Assembly: GCA_021805825.1 (NCBI GenBank)
Contig: JAJZEC010000009.1
Span: 1 to 64,000 of the forward strand
DNA from: Pseudomonadota bacterium
Lineage (GTDB): Bacteria > Pseudomonadota > Gammaproteobacteria > Burkholderiales > Burkholderiaceae_C
Length of the DNA stretch: 64,000 nt
Direction: 5' to 3'
In this document: positions 1,202 to 9,704 of the stretch, one piece after another
How the letters are laid out: each line of letters begins with the position of its first letter
How positions within the stretch are numbered: position 1 is the stretch's first letter
The notes under the pieces: model-generated
The model's database searches: none
What the model was told of the DNA's origin: nothing
What the model saw: the letters and a program-made list of their open reading frames with translations, nothing else
Position numbers and translations under genes: made by a program

Positions 1202-1396
1202 TCAGCCCTGCTGCAGGGTTTCGTCCAGGCTCTCCCCGGGCTTCCACGGACGGCCCAGGCGCTCCTCGATGTACTCCCGGATCAGGCGACGCACGACCTG
1301 CGAGGGAGTCTGATCCTCCAGCGCGCACAGATGTTCGAACACCGTCTTCTTGCGCGGATCGATGAGGACCGTCAATCGGGTGGTGCGTTGTTCCAT
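1202..1396 (-). CDS. Ribbon-helix-helix (CopG-type) DNA-binding protein
   Basis: The 64-aa product has the ribbon-helix-helix layout. A short basic beta strand (TTRLTVLIDP, residues 5-14) is followed by helix A (15-28) and helix B beginning at TPSQVVRRLIREYIEERL (30-47). Such proteins bind DNA as dimers through the strand pair, often as repressors of a neighbour. It is divergent from the Hyf-like operon, whose first codon is 92 bases away, and a 7-bp inverted repeat lies in the gap. Control of that operon is therefore a reasonable inference, not shown. An antitoxin role is possible in this fold, but no toxin gene is adjacent. Confidence 0.75.
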   Translation of the reverse strand: MEQRTTRLTVLIDPRKKTVFEHLCALEDQTPSQVVRRLIREYIEERLGRPWKPGESLDETLQQG

Positions 1397-1488: not shown

Positions 1489-3492
1489 ATGGAGCCGCCC
1501 GCACTGCTTTCGCTGGCCCTTGCCGTGGTCGCCGCCTGGCTGGTGCTGGGGGTGGCCGGTCTGGCGCGGCCACGAGCCACGCGCTGGATCGCCCACCGGC
1601 TGTTTCCGCTCGGTGCCGTGGGCTGCCTGCTCATAGCCTGGGTCGGCTTGCGCGCGCTGTTCGCGCCGGCCACCGACCTGCTGCTGCCGCTGGGGCTGCC
1701 GGGGCTGCCGGTTCACCTGCATCTGGATCCGCTGAGCGGTTTCTTCCTGCTGCTGCTGGGCCTGTCGAGCGCGGGAACCTCGGTGTTCGCCGCCGGCTAT
1801 TTCCGCGACGGCGAGGGCACCGCGCCCGGCTTGCTGGGCATGCAGTACCACCTGTTCCTGGCCGGCATGGTGATGGTGCTGCTGGCCGCCGACGCCTACA
1901 CCTTCATGCTGGCGTGGGAAGTCATGGCGCTGTCGTCGTACTTCCTGGTGCTGACCCAGCATCGGCTGGCCGAAATCCGCGCGGCCGGCTTCCTGTACCT
2001 GCTGCTGGCCCACCTGGGGGCGATCTCGTTGCTGCTGTGCTTCGGGGTGATGATGCGGGGCGGCGAGGCCGGCCTGAGTTTCGCCGCGATGCGCGCCGCC
2101 CACTTCAGCGTCGGCTGGGCCAGCCTGGGCTTCGCCTTGGCCGTGCTGGGCTTCGGCGCCAAGGCCGGCCTGGTTCCGCTGCACGTGTGGCTGCCGGAAG
2201 CCCACCCGGCGGCACCGTCGCCGGTCTCGGCATTGATGAGTGGGGTGATGCTGAAGACGGCCTTGTACGGACTGTTGCGCGTGGCCTTCGATCTGTTGCA
2301 CGCCCCTGCCTGGTGGTGGGGCCTGCCGTTGCTCGGCCTGGGGCTGTTCGGGGCGCTGTACGGGGTGCTGTTCGCCGCGGTGCAGAACGACATGAAACGC
2401 CTGCTCGCGTACTCCTCCATCGAAAACATGGGCATTGCCTTCGCCGCCCTCGGGCTGGCGCTGGTCTTCCACGGTACGGGCATGGCCGCACTGGCGGCGC
2501 TGGCGCTGGCGGCGATGCTCTACCACCTGTTGAACCACAGCATGTTCAAGAGCCTGCTGTTCTGCGCCACCGGTTCGGTGCTGCACGCCACCCGGCAACG
2601 CAGCCTGGGCAGCCTCGGCGGATTGCTGCGGCGCATGCCCTGGGTCGGATGGACGGCCTTGGTGGGCACGCTGGCGATCGCCGGGCTGCCGCCGCTCAAC
2701 GGCTTTGTCTCGGAATGGCTGCTGCTGCAGGCCTTCCTGTTCACGCCACGCCTGCCGCACCCCTTTTTCAACCTGTTGCTGCCGCTGGGCGCCGCGCTGC
2801 TGGCGCTGACCGCCGCGCTGGCCGGCTATGTGATGGTCAAGTTCTACGGCGTGGTGTTCCTCGGGCGGCACCGTGAACCGGGGCTCGAGCAGGCCAGGGA
2901 CTGCGGCCGCTTCGAGCGCGTCGCGCTGCTGTGGTTCGCCGCCGGCTGCGTGCTGCTCGGCGTGCTGCCGGGCCTGGTGCTGCGGGCCATCGATCCGGTC
3001 GCCTCCCTGCTGCTCGGGCAGGGGCTGTCGTTGTCGGCCGGCTGGCTTCGAGTGGTTCCGGTGAGCGCCGCACGCGCCGCCTACGACCCGCTGGTGTTGC
3101 TGCTGTTGCTGAGCGTCGTCATGCTGCTGACGACCTGGGTCGCGCACCGGGTGTACAGCGGGCGCACGCGGCGTGCCGATGCCTGGGATTGCGGCTATGC
3201 CGACGCCAGCCCGCGTTTGCAGGACACCGCCGAGGGCTTCGGGCAGCCGGTGCGGCGGCTGTTCGCGCCTTTCTTTCTGAGCCATGTCGAGTTGCCACGG
3301 CCGGACGACGACGCTCCGCGCTACCGCGTGGTCGTCGCCGACCGCTTCCGCGCCCAGGTCTACCAGCCGGCGGCGGATGCCGTGCTGTGGATGGCGCAGC
3401 AGGTCGGTCGGCTGCAGCATGGAAGGATTTCCATCTACCTGCTCTACAGCTTTGTGACCCTGCTGGTCATGCTGCTGTTCGTGTTGCGATGA
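1489..3492 (+). CDS. hyfB: HyfB-like proton-pumping membrane subunit (NuoL/M family)
   Basis: This 667-aa, strongly hydrophobic protein belongs to the Mrp antiporter / NuoL-NuoM-NuoN family and would form an ion-translocating module. Key polar residues of the family sit in the expected places: Glu144 in MLAWEVMALSS (TM5 glutamate) and Lys225 in FGAKAGLVPLHVWLPEAHPA (TM7 lysine and the following loop). Length and architecture fit HyfB/HycC. It is the first gene of a six-gene operon whose genes overlap or touch. The ATG at 1489 has no clear Shine-Dalgarno. It ends in an ATGA overlap with the next gene. Confidence 0.88.
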   Translation: MEPPALLSLALAVVAAWLVLGVAGLARPRATRWIAHRLFPLGAVGCLLIAWVGLRALFAPATDLLLPLGLPGLPVHLHLDPLSGFFLLLLGLSSAGTSVFAAGYFRDGEGTAPGLLGMQYHLFLAGMVMVLLAADAYTFMLAWEVMALSSYFLVLTQHRLAEIRAAGFLYLLLAHLGAISLLLCFGVMMRGGEAGLSFAAMRAAHFSVGWASLGFALAVLGFGAKAGLVPLHVWLPEAHPAAPSPVSALMSGVMLKTALYGLLRVAFDLLHAPAWWWGLPLLGLGLFGALYGVLFAAVQNDMKRLLAYSSIENMGIAFAALGLALVFHGTGMAALAALALAAMLYHLLNHSMFKSLLFCATGSVLHATRQRSLGSLGGLLRRMPWVGWTALVGTLAIAGLPPLNGFVSEWLLLQAFLFTPRLPHPFFNLLLPLGAALLALTAALAGYVMVKFYGVVFLGRHREPGLEQARDCGRFERVALLWFAAGCVLLGVLPGLVLRAIDPVASLLLGQGLSLSAGWLRVVPVSAARAAYDPLVLLLLLSVVMLLTTWVAHRVYSGRTRRADAWDCGYADASPRLQDTAEGFGQPVRRLFAPFFLSHVELPRPDDDAPRYRVVVADRFRAQVYQPAADAVLWMAQQVGRLQHGRISIYLLYSFVTLLVMLLFVLR

Positions 3493-4472
3493 TCGCCCTG
3501 CCTGCCTTGCCCCGCATCGAGTTGACCGCCTCGGGTCTGCTGACCCAGTGCGTGGTCGTCGCGCTTTCGGTTGCGCTGGCTCCGCTGTTCTCGGGCTGGC
3601 TGGCGCAATGCCGTGCCTGGTTGAGCAACCGCAGCGCGCCGCCCCTGTGGCAGCCGTACCTGCGGCTGCGCAAGCTGTTCGCCAAGGATGCCGTGCTGGC
3701 GCACGACGCCTCGCCGCTGTTCCGCATGGTTCCCTATCTGCTGTTCGGGCTCATGGCCGCGGCGGCGGCGATCATTCCCTCGCTGTCCACGGATCTGCCG
3801 CTGGCCGCGTCTGCCGATGCCATCGCGCTCGTCGGGGTGTTCGCATTGGCCAGGGTGTTCCTGGCCTTGGCGGGAATGGACATCGGGACGGCCTTCGGCA
3901 GCATGGGCTCGCGGCGGGAGATGCTGGTCGGATTCCTGGCCGAACCGGCGCTGCTGATGGTGCTGTTCACCTCGTCGCTGGTTTCCGGAAGCACCCTGCT
4001 GCCGACGATCGCCGAAAGCCTGCGCGCGCAGACCCTGGCCATCCATCCGGGTCTGGACTTCGCCGCGGTGGCCTTCGTGATGGTGCTGCTGGCGGAGAAC
4101 GCCCGCATCCCGGTGGACAACCCCAGCACCCACCTCGAGCTGACGATGATCCACGAGGCGATGCTGCTGGAATACTCGGCGCGCCATCTGGCGCTGGTGG
4201 AATGGGCCAACAGCCTGAAGCTGTTCAACTATGCCTGCATCGGCTTCGCGCTGTTCCTGCCCTGGGGCCTGGCGGGGCACGCGGACGGCCTGCTGTGGCT
4301 GCTGCCGGCGCTGCCGCCGCTGCTGCTCAAGCTCGCGCTGGCCGGGGCCGGCATCGCGCTGTTGGAGACGGTGAGCGCCAAGCTGCGCGTCTTCCGCGTT
4401 CCCGAGTTCCTGGCCACCGCCTTCCTGCTGGCGGTCATCGGGCTGCTGGTCTCCCTCGTGCTGGAGCATTGA
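3489..4472 (+). CDS. hyfC: HyfC-like membrane subunit (NuoH family)
   Basis: The 327-aa product is a multi-span membrane protein of the NuoH/HyfC/HycD family, which anchors the peripheral arm to the membrane. Family markers include LWQPYLRLRKLFAKD (about 54-70), a MDIGTAFGSMGSRREM loop and the acidic ENARIPVDNPSTHLELTMIHEAM segment, which carries the conserved acidic residues of NuoH-type subunits. The ATG at 3489 overlaps the hyfB stop codon (ATGA), which indicates translational coupling. The family assignment is secure; the function depends on the odd large subunit encoded downstream. Confidence 0.88.
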   Translation: MIALPALPRIELTASGLLTQCVVVALSVALAPLFSGWLAQCRAWLSNRSAPPLWQPYLRLRKLFAKDAVLAHDASPLFRMVPYLLFGLMAAAAAIIPSLSTDLPLAASADAIALVGVFALARVFLALAGMDIGTAFGSMGSRREMLVGFLAEPALLMVLFTSSLVSGSTLLPTIAESLRAQTLAIHPGLDFAAVAFVMVLLAENARIPVDNPSTHLELTMIHEAMLLEYSARHLALVEWANSLKLFNYACIGFALFLPWGLAGHADGLLWLLPALPPLLLKLALAGAGIALLETVSAKLRVFRVPEFLATAFLLAVIGLLVSLVLEH

Positions 4473-4473
4473 G

Positions 4474-5133
4474 GTGCTGCCGCTGACGACCCAGCTCATC
4501 CACCTGTGCGCGGCGCTGCTGCTGCTGCTGGCTTTCGCCATGCTGGCGCAGCGCCGCGTGGCCAACCTGGTCGGGCTGTTCGCCGCCCAGGGGCTGGTGC
4601 TCGCGGTGTGCGCGGCGGTCGTGGCCTATACCACGGGGCAGCGCGAACTCTACGGCTCGGCGGCGCTGACGGTGCTGCTCAAGGTGCTCGTGCTGCCCTG
4701 GGTGTTGCGCCACCTGATCGTGCGCCTGCATGCGCAGTGGGATACCGAGACCCTGCTGCGCATCCCCACGATGCAGATCCTGGGCATCCTGCTGGTGATG
4801 TTCGCCTTCGTGCTGGCGCAGCCGATCGCTCCCTTCGCCGGCGCGGCCACCCGCGGCACCCTGGGCATCGCGCTCGCGGTGGTGTTCCTGGCCTTGCTGA
4901 TGATGATCGTGCGGCGCACCGCGATCGCCCAGGTGATCGGCTTCCTGGCCATGGAAAACGGCCTGCTGTTCGCCGCCACCAGCGCGACCTACGGCATGCC
5001 CATGGTGGTCGAGCTGGGCATCGGGCTGGACGTGCTGGTCGGGGTGTTCGTGCTGGGCATCTTCTTCTTCCAGATCCGCGAGCAGTTCGACAGCCTCGAA
5101 CTGCGCCATCTGGAAAACCTGAAGGAAGAGTGA
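4474..5133 (+). CDS. hyfE: HyfE-like membrane subunit (NuoK-like)
   Basis: The 219-aa membrane protein matches HyfE of hydrogenase-4-type complexes, a NuoK-like subunit with extra helices. It has about six or seven hydrophobic spans. The late segment with MENGLLFAATSATYGMPMVVELGIGLDVLVGV carries the buried glutamates typical of NuoK-type proton paths. Translation starts at GTG 4474, one base after the hyfC stop. It ends directly before the next start (stop 5131-5133, GTG 5134), as expected for a coupled operon. Confidence 0.87.
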   Translation: MLPLTTQLIHLCAALLLLLAFAMLAQRRVANLVGLFAAQGLVLAVCAAVVAYTTGQRELYGSAALTVLLKVLVLPWVLRHLIVRLHAQWDTETLLRIPTMQILGILLVMFAFVLAQPIAPFAGAATRGTLGIALAVVFLALLMMIVRRTAIAQVIGFLAMENGLLFAATSATYGMPMVVELGIGLDVLVGVFVLGIFFFQIREQFDSLELRHLENLKEE

Positions 5134-6594
5134 GTGGAACTGGCTGCCGTCCTGCTGCTGCCGCTTCTGGCCTCTGCGCTGCTGGCGCTGTGGGGGCATC
5201 GCGATGCCGCCCCGCACCTGAACCTGGCGGCCAGCGCCGCCACCTTCGCCGCCAGTTGCGCGCTGACCCTGCGGGTGATCGCGCACGGCCCGTTCCAGGC
5301 CTTCGATGCGCAGTTCTTCATCGATCCCTTCAATGTGTTCCTGGTCGTGCTGACCGCCTTCATCGGCATGACCACCGCCGGCTTCTCGCGCCCGTACATG
5401 CGCATCGAGCAGGCGCATGGCCGGGTCAACGCGGCGCGGCTGCGGCTGTACCACAGCATGTACCAGCTGTTCATGTTCACCATGCTGCTGGCGCTGACCA
5501 CCAACAACATGGGGGTGCTGTGGGTCGCGATGGAGGCGGCCACGCTGTCGACCGTGCTGCTGGTGTCCCTCTACCGCACCAAGGCGAGCCTGGAGGCGGC
5601 CTGGAAGTACTTCATCGTCTGCGGCGTCGGCATCGCGCTGGCGCTGTTCGGCACCGTGCTGCTCTACCTGGCGGCCGAGCGCGTGCTCGGCGCCACCGGG
5701 ATGAGCGCGCTGCTGTGGACGCGGCTGGACGCGGCGCGCACGCGCCTGCAGCCAGGGATCATCGGCATCGCCTTTGTGTTCCTGCTCGTCGGCTACGGCA
5801 CCAAGGTCGGACTGGTGCCGCTGCACAGCTGGCTGCCCGACGCCCATGCCGAGGGCCCGACCCCGGTGTCGGCGGTGCTCAGCGGGTTGCTGCTGAACGT
5901 CGCGCTGTACGCGGTGGTGCGCGCGAAGGTGCTGGTCGAAGGCGCGGTGCAGGCCTCGTGGCCGGGGGACATGCTGATGGCCTTCGGGCTGCTGTCGGTG
6001 GTGGTTGCCTCCTTCCTGCTGTGGCGGCAGAAGGACATCAAGCGCCTGTTCGCCTACTCCTCCATCGAGCACATGGGCATCATCACCTTTGCCTTCGGCA
6101 TGGGCGGGGCGATGGCCAATTTCGCCGCGCTGCTGCACATGACCGGGCACGCGCTGACGAAGAGCGCGATCTTCTACAGCAGCGGCCACGCTGCGCAGAA
6201 GGCCGGAAGCCAGCGCATCGATGCCATCGAGGGCCTGCTTGAGCGCTCGCCGGCGCTGGGCTGGGCGCTGATGCTGGGGGCGCTGGCGATCATCGGCGTG
6301 CCGCCCTTCGGGGTGTTCGCCAGCGAATTCCTGATCCTGACCCAGGCCATGCAGGCGCAGCCCTGGGCCACGCCGATCCTGCTGCTGGCGCTCGGCGTGG
6401 CCTTCGGCGCGATCTTCCTGCGTGTGCAGGGCATGGTGTTCGGCGCCGATCGCCTGCGCCGCCTGCCGCACCAACCGTGGATGCTGCCGGCCTTCGTGCA
6501 CCTGGGACTGGTGCTGCTGCTGGGCATCTGGGTTCCGACCTTCCTGGCCTCGTGGTGGCATCTGGCCGCGCAGATGATCGGGGGGGCCGCGTGA
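5134..6594 (+). CDS. hyfF: HyfF-like proton-pumping membrane subunit (NuoL/M/N family)
   Basis: This 486-aa protein is the second antiporter-type subunit of the complex. It carries Glu134 in VAMEAATLST and Lys224 in GYGTKVGLVPLHSWLPDAHA, followed by EGPTPVSAVLSG, the core proton-path residues of this family. The DIKRLFAYSSIEHMGI motif is also present. Two antiporter-like subunits (this one and HyfB) suggest a complex able to move more than one ion per turnover. It starts with GTG immediately after the HyfE stop and overlaps the next gene by 4 bases (GTGA). Confidence 0.88.
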   Translation: MELAAVLLLPLLASALLALWGHRDAAPHLNLAASAATFAASCALTLRVIAHGPFQAFDAQFFIDPFNVFLVVLTAFIGMTTAGFSRPYMRIEQAHGRVNAARLRLYHSMYQLFMFTMLLALTTNNMGVLWVAMEAATLSTVLLVSLYRTKASLEAAWKYFIVCGVGIALALFGTVLLYLAAERVLGATGMSALLWTRLDAARTRLQPGIIGIAFVFLLVGYGTKVGLVPLHSWLPDAHAEGPTPVSAVLSGLLLNVALYAVVRAKVLVEGAVQASWPGDMLMAFGLLSVVVASFLLWRQKDIKRLFAYSSIEHMGIITFAFGMGGAMANFAALLHMTGHALTKSAIFYSSGHAAQKAGSQRIDAIEGLLERSPALGWALMLGALAIIGVPPFGVFASEFLILTQAMQAQPWATPILLLALGVAFGAIFLRVQGMVFGADRLRRLPHQPWMLPAFVHLGLVLLLGIWVPTFLASWWHLAAQMIGGAA

Positions 6595-8108
6595 GCCCGC
6601 TGCCGATGCCGCGCCTCGTGGGAGCGCCCCTTGCGCTGCAGGCGCGCGCCGTGGATGGCGCGGGCTGGCGCGCGCTGGCGCAGCAACTGCATGCGCGCGG
6701 CGCACTGCTGTTGTCGCTGTGGGGGCAGCCGGCCGGGCAGGGAAGTCGCCTGTGGGGCTGCTGGCTGGATGGCGAGGCCCTGGAACTCGCCTGCCTCGAT
6801 CTGCCCCCCGGGCAGCAGCAATACCCGGGGCTGCACGACCTGTTCCCGGTCGCCGGGCGGCTGCAGCGCGCCGTGCGCGACCTGCTCGGCGCGGTCGCCC
6901 AGGGCATGGATCCGCGGGGCTGGCTGCGGCATGGCGCCTGGGGCGCCGACTGGCATCCCCTGCGCGACCCCGGGCCGCCCGCGGCCGGATCCCCGCAGCC
7001 CTATGCCTTCGTTTCGGTGGACGGCGTGGGCGTGCATGAGATCGCGGTGGGGCCGGTGCATGCGGGGGTCATCGAGCCCGGTCAGTTCCGTTTTTCGGTG
7101 GTGGGCGAAAAGGTGCTGCGGCTCGAACAGCGCCTGGGCTTCACCCACAAGGGCGTGGCGCTGCGCTTCCAGCAGCTCGATGTGCGTGGCGGCCTGCGCC
7201 TGGCGGCCCGTCTCAGCGGGGACAGCGCAGTCGGCTTCGGCTGGGCCTACTGCATGGCCGCGGAGGCGCTGGGCGGGGTGCAGCCGCCGCCGCGCGCGCT
7301 GCATCTGCGGGCCCTGCTGCTCGAGCGTGAGCGCATCGCCAACCACCTGGGCGATCTCGGGGCCATTGTCAACGACGCCGGCTTCGGCTTCGCGCTGACC
7401 CAGTTCTCCCGCCTGAAGGAGGATCTGCTGCGCCTCAACCACCGCCTGTTCGGCGCGCGCTATCCGATGGACGCGCTGTGCCTGGGGGGCGTGGCCTTCG
7501 ATGTCGACGCCCAGGCGCTCGATGCCCTGCGGCGGCAGGGCGCGCAACTGCGCGAGCAGGCCCTGCGCCTGCGTTCCATTCTCGACGAGCACGAAGGCCT
7601 GCACGACCGTCTGCGCGGCACCGGGCGGGTCGATGCCGGGCGGGCATCGCAACTGGGCATGCTGGGGCTGGCGGCGCGCGCCAGCGGGCAGGGCATCGAC
7701 CTGCGCGCGCTGGCCGTCGCATGGGAGCCCTATGCGCAGCTGGGGGTGCAGCCGGTCGTGCAGCAGGCAGGCGATGTCGCGGCGCGCGTCGCGTTGCGTC
7801 ACGAAGAGTTGCTGGCCTCGCTGGAGCTGTGCGACCGCCTGCTGGACGGCCTTCCGCAGGGCCCGCTGCAGGTGGAACTGCGCACGCCGTCGCCCGGCCT
7901 GGGCATCGGCCTCGTCGAGGCCTGGCGCGGCCCCGTACTGCTGGCGCTCGAGGTCGGCGAGCAGGGGCGCATCGTGCGCTGCCATGCGCATGATCCCTCG
8001 TGGCAGAACTGGCCTGCGCTGGAATGGGCGGTGGTGCAGGATATCGTGGCCGACTTTCCGCTGATCAACAAATCCTTCAATCTGTCCTATTCGGGACACG
8101 ACGGCTGA
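6591..8108 (+). CDS. hyfG: HyfG-like large subunit lacking the Ni-Fe site
   Basis: The 505-aa protein fuses a NuoC-like N-terminal domain (about 1-140) to a NuoD / hydrogenase large-subunit domain, as in HycE and HyfG. The GPVHAG motif (154-159) follows the group 4 hydrogenase pattern. The nickel ligands are missing. The N-terminal CGIC position reads SGDS (209-212). The C-terminal CxxC position reads SYSG (499-502), inside the closing SFNLSYSGHDG. No C-terminal extension for maturation protease cleavage follows. It is therefore not a [NiFe] hydrogenase subunit; it resembles the Ehr (energy-converting hydrogenase-related) class. GTG 6591 overlaps the hyfF stop. Confidence 0.85.
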   Translation: MSPLPMPRLVGAPLALQARAVDGAGWRALAQQLHARGALLLSLWGQPAGQGSRLWGCWLDGEALELACLDLPPGQQQYPGLHDLFPVAGRLQRAVRDLLGAVAQGMDPRGWLRHGAWGADWHPLRDPGPPAAGSPQPYAFVSVDGVGVHEIAVGPVHAGVIEPGQFRFSVVGEKVLRLEQRLGFTHKGVALRFQQLDVRGGLRLAARLSGDSAVGFGWAYCMAAEALGGVQPPPRALHLRALLLERERIANHLGDLGAIVNDAGFGFALTQFSRLKEDLLRLNHRLFGARYPMDALCLGGVAFDVDAQALDALRRQGAQLREQALRLRSILDEHEGLHDRLRGTGRVDAGRASQLGMLGLAARASGQGIDLRALAVAWEPYAQLGVQPVVQQAGDVAARVALRHEELLASLELCDRLLDGLPQGPLQVELRTPSPGLGIGLVEAWRGPVLLALEVGEQGRIVRCHAHDPSWQNWPALEWAVVQDIVADFPLINKSFNLSYSGHDG

Positions 8109-8657: not shown

Positions 8658-9704
8658 CTAGGCCAGCAGCCGTGCGGCGACCGCGTCGAAGGCGTCGGCG
8701 CTGTCGATGCACAGCCGCGGAGCATCGGCGAAGGCGGCGAAGTTGCGCTGCATCGAAGCCTCGTAGCTGGGGTCGTAGTGCTGCTCCAGCAGTTCGGCCA
8801 CGAGTGCGTCGAAGTGGTGCTGCGCGGCCATCGAGCACCAGCGTTCGACGCTTGCGTGGCCGCGCAGTTCGCGCAGCGCGCGCAAGCGCTCCTGCAGGCG
8901 GGGTACATCGGCGCTGAGTTCGGCGTAGTCCTCGCGCAGGATGCGCACCCGCACCTCCAGGCCGGCCTGCAGCCGCAGGCACGGTGCCGCGCGCATGCGC
9001 TCGAGCAGGGCTTGCGGAACCTGCAGGCGGCCGATCCTGCGGCTCTCGCTTTCGACAAAGACCGGCCGCTGCGCGTCGAAGGCGCGCAACTGCTGCCACA
9101 ACGCGGTCTCGAAAGCCTTCTGCGTCGGTTGCTCGACGCCGGCCAACGCGCCCAGCACCGAGCCGCGGTGGGCGGCGAGATCCTCGAGGTCGAGCACCTG
9201 GGCGCCCTGCCGGCGCAGCGCCTGCAGCAGGCGGCTCTTGCCGCAGCCGGTCGGCCCGCACAGCACGCGCAGTGGCTGGGTGGCCGCGCGCGCGGCCAGT
9301 TGTTGCACGATGGCCGCGCGCAGCGCCTTGTAGCCGCCTTGCACGACGTGCACGCGGAAGCCGATCTGCCCCAGCACATGGGCCATCGCAGCCGAGCGGC
9401 TGCCGCCGCGCCAGCAGTACGCCAGGATCCCGTGGTGCCGCGGCCACGACCCGGCACCCGCCTCGATGTGGCCGGCAATGTTGCGCGCCACCAGCACCGC
9501 GCCCAGGCGCTTGGCCTCGAACGAGCCCCGCTCCTTGTACAGCGTGCCCACCCTTGCACGTTCGGCGTCGTCAAGCACCCACCAGTTGGCGGCTTCCGGC
9601 AGATGGTCGAGGGCGTATTCGCCGGGGCTGCGCACGTCGAGCACGGCGTCGAAATCCTGCAGGCGCTCCAGCGCCTGCCCGGCCTCGATGGCTTGCGGAT
9701 TCAT
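8658..9704 (-). CDS. mnmH: tRNA 2-selenouridine/geranyl-2-thiouridine synthase MnmH
   Basis: MnmH replaces sulfur by selenium in 2-thiouridine at the wobble position of certain tRNAs, using selenophosphate. The 348-aa protein has an N-terminal rhodanese domain with the catalytic cysteine in AYCWRGGSRS (Cys97). A C-terminal P-loop domain contains GPTGCGKS (150-157). The length fits the family. It shares a 4-base start/stop overlap with tesA upstream and is convergent with the Hyf-like operon. No selD is present in the window, so the selenophosphate source must lie elsewhere. Confidence 0.92.
   Translation of the reverse strand: MNPQAIEAGQALERLQDFDAVLDVRSPGEYALDHLPEAANWWVLDDAERARVGTLYKERGSFEAKRLGAVLVARNIAGHIEAGAGSWPRHHGILAYCWRGGSRSAAMAHVLGQIGFRVHVVQGGYKALRAAIVQQLAARAATQPLRVLCGPTGCGKSRLLQALRRQGAQVLDLEDLAAHRGSVLGALAGVEQPTQKAFETALWQQLRAFDAQRPVFVESESRRIGRLQVPQALLERMRAAPCLRLQAGLEVRVRILREDYAELSADVPRLQERLRALRELRGHASVERWCSMAAQHHFDALVAELLEQHYDPSYEASMQRNFAAFADAPRLCIDSADAFDAVAARLLA

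Follow-up and report, generated by a model that had tools for sequence, protein, structure and literature searches.

An Ehr-type hyfBCEFGI operon of a Thiomonas-like genus encodes a large subunit lacking every nickel ligand

The stretch of DNA analysed here (the window; positions 1 to 64,000 of contig JAJZEC010000009.1, assembly GCA_021805825.1, from a Pseudomonadota bacterium of the Burkholderiaceae_C) contains within its first 9 kb a tight six-gene operon, hyfBCEFGI. All four nickel ligands of its large subunit, HyfG, are replaced, by S209, S212, S499 and G502. The complex has every feature examined that characterizes the energy-converting hydrogenase-related (Ehr) complexes: a large subunit related to group 4 and NuoD, loss of both CxxC motifs, antiporter-, NuoH- and NuoB-like subunits, and separation in the tree. 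The assignment to Ehr proposed in an earlier note, made from the sequence without database searches, is therefore right. Both the Ehr complexes and the absence of NiFe ligands from them have been published before, and the window adds a member. With slightly better than even confidence, we take the complex, whose six subunits are related to those of hydrogenase-3/4 and complex I, to be a redox-coupled proton pump working without nickel.

Loss of the nickel ligands from HyfG

The HyfG translation contains a GPVHAG motif, SGDS at residues 209–212 and SYSG at 499–502, with three residues between the latter and the end. The earlier note described these as replacements of both CxxC motifs (SGDS for CGIC and SYSG for CxxC), and the translation and alignments to HycE bear this out. 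The likeness to HycE/HyfG that it drew from the GPVHAG motif and a fused NuoC-like domain also holds, with a common fold over 485 residues with HycE (7z0s) among the alignments in Foldseek's top 1000.

The replacements extend throughout the relatives. Among 87 relative rows, position 209 is Ser in 70, Cys in nine, Ala in seven and Val in one; position 212 is Ser in 68, Thr in 17 and Ala in two; position 499 is Ser in 71, Ala in ten and Asn in five (one gap); and position 502 is Gly in 84 and Ala in two (one gap). A check for relatives with normal motifs found no complete CxxC (both cysteines of either motif) in these 87 rows or in the 44 rows of a second, overlapping set. No row of either set has residues past the C-terminal end of the window protein, consistent with the absence of a maturation tail as first described, whereas CGIC, CYSC and a tail of 31–32 residues are found in each of the nine HycE-type sequences from the phylum sample. 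The ligand positions are replaced in loci of Pseudomonadota and in bins named Nitrospirota and Acidobacteriota, and other residues, D211, N493, K494 and N497, have become invariant or almost so.

A decayed or mis-sequenced hydrogenase would also lack its ligands in the window, but chance and sequencing error are excluded by the lack of a complete CxxC in either row set. Moreover, hyfG is present without internal stops in 28/28 genomes of the Thiomonas-like genus (G010 and G025 partial; 61–77% identical outside the window's own genome), and new residues have become invariant. Decay or sequencing error is thus refuted as the explanation of the ligand loss, with a residual probability close to nil. 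The open frame across the genus, the replacement of ligands across lineages and the new invariant residues sustain the earlier reading of a functional repurposing.

Active-site pocket

Roles of HycE residues were taken from excerpts of the formate hydrogenlyase (FHL) structure paper (PMC9474812), with numbering anchored at CYSC = 531, which places the HycE CGIC at 241. The beta1–beta2 loop Glu (HycE E193, HyfG E162) and the counterparts of H284 (H252), E437 (E406) and R478 (R446) are each retained in 87/87 rows. R395 corresponds to R363 (83 Arg, 4 Lys), and Y532 and D536 to Y500 and D504 (86 rows each, one gap). The canopy Asp D529, for which excerpts of PMC9474812 suggest strict conservation, is replaced by Asn 497 in 85 of the 86 gap-free rows. 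I243 is replaced by an Asp (211) that is invariant in the HyfG relatives, and N493 and K494, where HycE has Ile and Gly, are invariant in 58 rows. S283 corresponds to Asn 251 in 85/87 rows; the genome's own NuoD likewise has Asn.

Alignment to NuoD as well as to HycE, a check suggested in the earlier note, confirmed the ligand loss and revealed that the quinone residues of complex I are also replaced. The quinone-protonating His maps to I161 (87/87), and the quinone Tyr, whose position we take to be where the genome's own NuoD has Tyr, maps to G210 (86/87). Because the nickel ligands are gone, the canopy Asp is Asn and the quinone His and Tyr are replaced, the HyfG pocket is of neither hydrogenase nor complex I type.

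HyfI cluster and electron path

HyfI contains C55, C58 and C122 in 87/87 rows and C152 in 86 (one gap). These form the hydrogenase-type CxxC set (CNGC), whereas the genome's own NuoB-like open reading frame has a tandem CC. A CxxCxxC motif is found in no row of subunits C (73 rows), E (78), F (85), G (90) or I (87), and among 84 HyfB rows only in L126, whose frame may have been extended in error. Among the chosen open reading frames of the 87 loci, only four places have motifs of the form C..C..C...C: L053, in the second Variovorax operon; L088, in a frame that is doubtful; and L108 and L128, in genes at a greater distance. The hyfBCEFGI operon of the window lineage thus encodes no ferredoxin-type (HyfH/NuoI-like) subunit and, with no such motif in its subunits, no electron-input subunit, a point on which the earlier note is silent.

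A second cysteine-less paralogue, Ehr2, is present in 5/28 genus genomes (L138–L142; L166:5243-12743; L168:4035-11611). It is 32–34% identical to the window protein and has GPVRAD instead of GPVHAG; in both copies scanned (L166 and L168) a ferredoxin-type [4Fe-4S] domain forms one polypeptide with its NuoB-like subunit. A Variovorax plasmid (L053:1-3455) carries a third, divergent large subunit without a complete CxxC (VGDS, SYCG) and with a ferredoxin–NuoB fusion; a normal hyfBCEFGI cluster lies only a few kb away.

Distribution and phylogeny

The phylum sample contains 398 genomes, in which Ehr relatives were scored at E <= 3.5e-82 with at most three candidates per genome; at least 62 genomes have one. 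A broad contig scan found at least 574 loci, and the best 80, which were kept, include bins named Nitrospirae, Acidobacteriaceae and Granulicella, the Acidobacteriota rows coming from bins in which binning errors are possible. Matches at E <= 1e-40 are present in 63 plasmid records, and the lineages with matches include Rhizobium, Burkholderia and Azospirillum.

In the tree, another check that had been proposed, the Ehr-type large subunits group together (96/91) apart from HycE (100/99) and NuoD, with long branches flagged as a warning. The group labelled Ehr1 is not a single clade, because two f50 rows, with a branch of 4.6, nest inside it. In two genomes of family f50, G066 and G390 (L152 and L153), there is another cysteine-less large-subunit relative (INAVDSIAH and INALDSVAH) without the GPxH motif and on a very long branch.

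Operon organization and neighbouring genes

The features at the left end of the window are as follows.

112–1173: dusA
1202–1396, minus strand: divergent ribbon-helix-helix regulator, 64 residues (PF19839 RHH_9, 81 bits)
1397–1488, no strand: putative promoter/operator region, intergenic, with the TCACATGTGCATACTATGTGA inverted repeat (function predicted from sequence)
1489–3492, plus strand: HyfB, NuoL/M-like antiporter-type subunit, 667 residues (NCBIfam PRK06521, hydrogenase 4 subunit B, 864 bits, cut-off 667)
3489–4472, plus strand: HyfC, NuoH-like membrane subunit, 327 residues (PF00146, 102 bits, scanned from 3495)
4474–5133, plus strand: HyfE, NuoK-like membrane subunit, 219 residues (PRK11492, hydrogenase 4 membrane subunit, 86 bits, under the cut-off of 136)
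5134–6594, plus strand: HyfF, NuoM/N-like antiporter-type subunit, 486 residues (PRK06458.1-5, hydrogenase 4 subunit F, 823 bits, cut-off 543)
6591–8108, plus strand: HyfG/EhrL, NuoC–NuoD-like large subunit without any nickel ligand, 505 residues
8118–8636, plus strand: HyfI/EhrS, NuoB-like small subunit with one intact [4Fe-4S] ligand set (C55, C58, C122, C152), 172 residues (PF01058, 103 bits)

The six genes overlap or are closely spaced (e.g. the hyfC ATG at 3489 overlaps the hyfB stop), in keeping with the intact gene and tight operon described earlier. The gene after hyfI is on the minus strand, with its reading frame ending at 8658, and is selU-like by eye, with no family search behind the name.

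Neighbours conserved in at least eight of the 87 loci (window included) are a spermidine-synthase-like gene (at least 14), a ribbon-helix-helix gene (at least 11), a methionyl-tRNA-synthetase-like gene (at least 11, named by eye) and a helix-turn-helix gene (at least 8); these are lower bounds from rough gene calls, some in wrong frames, with a 70-residue floor, and exclude operon-gene families and wrong frames on operon genes. The spermidine-synthase-like gene (PF01564, 55 bits for the copy at L100:11993-12832) lies on either side of the operon in 14/87 loci, including L096, L102, L110, L113 and the Burkholderiales loci L053, L071, L073, L078 and L083.

The upstream regions of 28 genus loci from 27 genomes were compared (G025 is not included and G006 has two). 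The ribbon-helix-helix gene lies beside hyfB in all 24 loci that hold the upstream region and is 76–95% identical to that of the window. An intergenic element, G(T/C)(G/A)CATnnnATG(T/C)G, recurs by eye and lies within the inverted repeat in the window; the strict inverted repeat is matched in 4/24 loci, and a looser related element was recognized by eye in some others, with no statistical test. We infer a putative repressor–operator pair formed by this protein and the repeat. Several alphaproteobacterial loci (L055:6530-6826, L057, L129, L135 and L136) have a helix-turn-helix regulator gene directly before hyfB, at the site of the Thiomonas-like ribbon-helix-helix gene.

Low-oxygen regulation of the FNR type was considered and dropped because the best upstream box (1437–1450) has two mismatches and the window contains 16 such matches versus 4.8 expected. 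A possible relation to a low-oxygen-activated locus of Burkholderia, prompted by neighbouring universal stress proteins, was also dropped; among the papers listed, those naming that locus mention neither hydrogenase nor spermidine synthase.

Maturation genes

INDEPENDENCE from hydrogenase was gauged by the presence of HypD in the genus genomes and in the Ehr genomes of the phylum sample. HypD is found in 9/28 genus genomes (8/21 of good quality), leaving 19 without a match, some of them incomplete, and in 23/62 Ehr genomes of the phylum sample, leaving 39, some of them incomplete bins. The window's own genome has HypD together with true [NiFe] hydrogenases elsewhere, which would explain it, so the comparison is silent for this genome alone. 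The hyp search suggested in the earlier note thus gives a divided answer: HypD is not required across the relatives, but the genome in question has it alongside real hydrogenases. The term hydrogenase-4-like in that note's title should not be read as hydrogenase.

Formate dehydrogenase and RuBisCO

In three genus genomes (G008, G009 and G016; L158, L159 and L160) the operon is immediately followed by fdsG, fdsB and fdsA, and in a fourth (G007; L173/L012) fdsG is at a contig end. A minus-strand gene of ~360 residues separates the operon from the fds genes in both loci where it was called (L158 and L159). The four species are about equally near the window (71–72% identity), and their adjacencies, counted without a tree, may be one event. 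The window's genome has the same kind of formate dehydrogenase on another contig with a molybdate-type regulator (L161). Across the genus, Fdh-alpha is above the cut-off in 23/28 genomes and just below it in four more; G018 has only fragments and weaker relatives.

In the phylum sample (Fdh-alpha at E <= 1e-190, two candidates scored per genome), Fdh-alpha is present in 22/62 Ehr genomes and 150/336 others (p 0.21). By genus the counts are 17/33 versus 93/180 (odds ratio 0.99), or 17/24 versus 93/172 without families f39 and f59 (p 0.13). Fds proteins are absent from the 86 loci L052–L137 except for weak FdsA matches at L129 and L108. RuBisCO is commoner in Ehr genera (19/33 versus 23/180; 11/24 versus 16/172 without f39 and f59), counting a genus as positive if any sampled species is, with relatedness as a confounder since genera are not independent; matches of ~250 bits and below, apart from four fragments, were regarded as form IV (RuBisCO-like) and removed manually. 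This association suggests a weak hint of a lithoautotrophic setting. The genome and genus lists behind the HypD, Fdh-alpha and RuBisCO counts were typed by hand and leave out G171 (partial Ehr, E 4.7e-51) and G120 (HypD below the cut-off).

Proposed function and alternatives

The reading of the complex as a nickel-free, redox-coupled proton pump draws on what is conserved: the predicted large-subunit fold, the HycE proton-relay residues bar the canopy Asp, the single HyfI [4Fe-4S] set and the antiporter-type membrane subunits. By analogy with the superfamily, the HyfI cluster would deliver electrons to, or take them from, a small substrate bound in the vacated NiFe pocket, with the transfer coupled to proton movement via HyfBCEF in the general manner of complex I. 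The substrate could speculatively be a quinone, at somewhat less than an even chance; with both canonical quinone residues gone, its binding would have to differ from that in complex I. Because no electron-input subunit is encoded in the operon, the carrier on the other side could, again speculatively, be a soluble protein of its own, for instance ferredoxin or a dehydrogenase. In lithotrophs that fix CO2, this genus among them, the complex might run backward, using the proton gradient to generate low-potential reductant. Nitrospira offers an analogy and no more: excerpts of PMC6606698 discuss the need for reduced ferredoxin under lithoautotrophy for a different complex, 2M complex I. It is a tentative and on balance doubtful extension that this lineage represents a third pocket chemistry in the complex I superfamily, in which conserved D211, N493, K494 and N497 act beside retained Y500 and D504. 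The proton pump would then be a minimal one with a single cluster, to which a soluble carrier docks with no ferredoxin-like subunit in between, and it would support reverse electron flow in CO2-fixing lithotrophs.

Some observations weigh against the proposed pump. The Ile and Gly at the quinone positions speak against a complex-I-like quinone site, and CxxCxxC motifs are absent from subunits C, E, F, G and I. HypD is commoner in Ehr genera (18/33 versus 38/180; 14/24 versus 34/172 without f39 and f59); the association with RuBisCO may therefore be no more than a marker of lithotrophic lineages.

Among other explanations, it seems unlikely that a cytoplasmic formate dehydrogenase of the FdsGBA type is the dedicated partner of Ehr, making a formate-driven proton pump with another acceptor in place of H2. 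The fds genes beside the operon in four species and the prevalence of Fdh-alpha in the genus agree with it, as do excerpts reporting Geobacter Ehr subunits to be more abundant on formate than in hydrogen-containing conditions (PMC7894505), the same proposal in Riflemargulisbacteria (PMC6349859), and co-occurrence of a hyf-like operon with formate dehydrogenase in nitrite-oxidizing (NOB-type) Nitrospira (PMC5596200). However, the four adjacencies may be a single event, the loci L052–L137 offer nothing beyond weak FdsA matches, and comammox Nitrospira have the operon yet appear unable to oxidise formate, according to excerpts of PMC5596200. In one comammox Nitrospira the operon adjoins CO dehydrogenase (same source), so its neighbours vary. 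As a family-wide rule, an obligate formate dehydrogenase partner was rejected, there being no association by genome or by genus in the phylum sample.

The single FeS site, the lack of an electron-input subunit, the two Mrp-type subunits and the alteration of both hydrogenase and quinone site chemistry would also suit a redox-gated ion antiporter or sensor, in which a redox metabolite sensed at the cluster and pocket would control cation/proton exchange with no catalytic turnover. The invariant proton-relay residues and cluster ligands exceed the needs of a pure antiporter, though, and the nearest solved homologues are redox enzymes; we judge this improbable. Sulfur chemistry like that of MBS, with polysulfide or another sulfur species reduced or oxidised directly at the HyfI cluster, is more improbable still. 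MBS is named in excerpts of PMC9474812 and is a precedent of a group-4 relative turning over sulfur. Chain 6u8y_L (titled NADH dehydrogenase subunit D) matches the window protein at E 8.2e-16, but HycE and MbhL score far above it. We take this chain to be the MBS large subunit MbsL. Thiomonas is known for sulfur oxidation, but the complex is also found in Rhizobium, Burkholderia and Azospirillum, lineages not noted for sulfur metabolism.

Among the many lineages with Ehr complexes, the Thiomonas-like genus is a clean system for identifying their reaction, since all 28 genomes searched have Ehr, a regulator is adjacent, and 19 genomes (some incomplete) have no hypD match. The residue map weakens three published ideas, namely a hydrogenase, a complex-I-like quinone site and an obligate formate dehydrogenase partner, and points to residues for mutation. 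Together with the missing ferredoxin subunit and the adjacent regulator it sharpens an existing question and does not pose a new one; we make no claim that these points are unpublished.

Comparison with known systems

Ehr was reportedly defined by Marreiros and colleagues. Excerpts of other papers describe it as group-4-like, with antiporter-like subunits, no NiFe ligands and a function called unknown (PMC6349859, PMC10284858, PMC4378227, PMC12342949). Forms without NiFe ligands are described, in the excerpts available, from Riflemargulisbacteria, comammox and other Nitrospira, Sulfobacillus and ammonia-oxidising archaea, and a Geobacter cluster is named Ehr. Nitrospirales Ehr lack NiFe sites, and in N. 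moscoviensis Ehr expression does not rise with H2 according to excerpts of a 2025 paper (PMC12342949). In excerpts of further papers the hyfBCEFGI cluster of C. metallidurans is likened to an incomplete operon and that of A. ferrooxidans is reported as a non-hydrogenase; no reaction assigned to such a complex was found in the open-licence literature searched.

The E. coli hydrogenase-3/FHL (HycE) and hydrogenase-4 (HyfG) share with the window complex the large-subunit fold, the fused NuoC-like domain, the proton-relay Glu/His/Glu/Arg and the hydrogenase-type CxxC of the small subunit. The window complex differs in having no nickel ligands, maturation tail or HycB/HycF-type FeS subunits, and in its canopy Asn in place of Asp. 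Relative to respiratory complex I (NuoCD, NuoB, NuoH, NuoL/M/N), it has Ile and Gly for the quinone His and Tyr, CNGC and not tandem CC in the small subunit, and no NADH module in the operon. Ehr2 and the second Variovorax operon resemble it in lacking a complete CxxC and in their kinds of subunits, but have a ferredoxin-type domain fused to the NuoB-like subunit, a fusion that HyfI lacks. Its closest counterparts are the Ehr complexes of the hyfBCEFGI type in Cupriavidus metallidurans CH34, Acidithiobacillus ferrooxidans and Nitrospira, which have the same six genes according to excerpts of PMC2864759, PMC7735108 and PMC5596200, in matching order wherever annotation was examined; the C. metallidurans homologue is 52% identical to the window protein. 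Nothing differs fundamentally from other Ehr complexes, and the window's genus adds an adjacent, divergent RHH_9 regulator.

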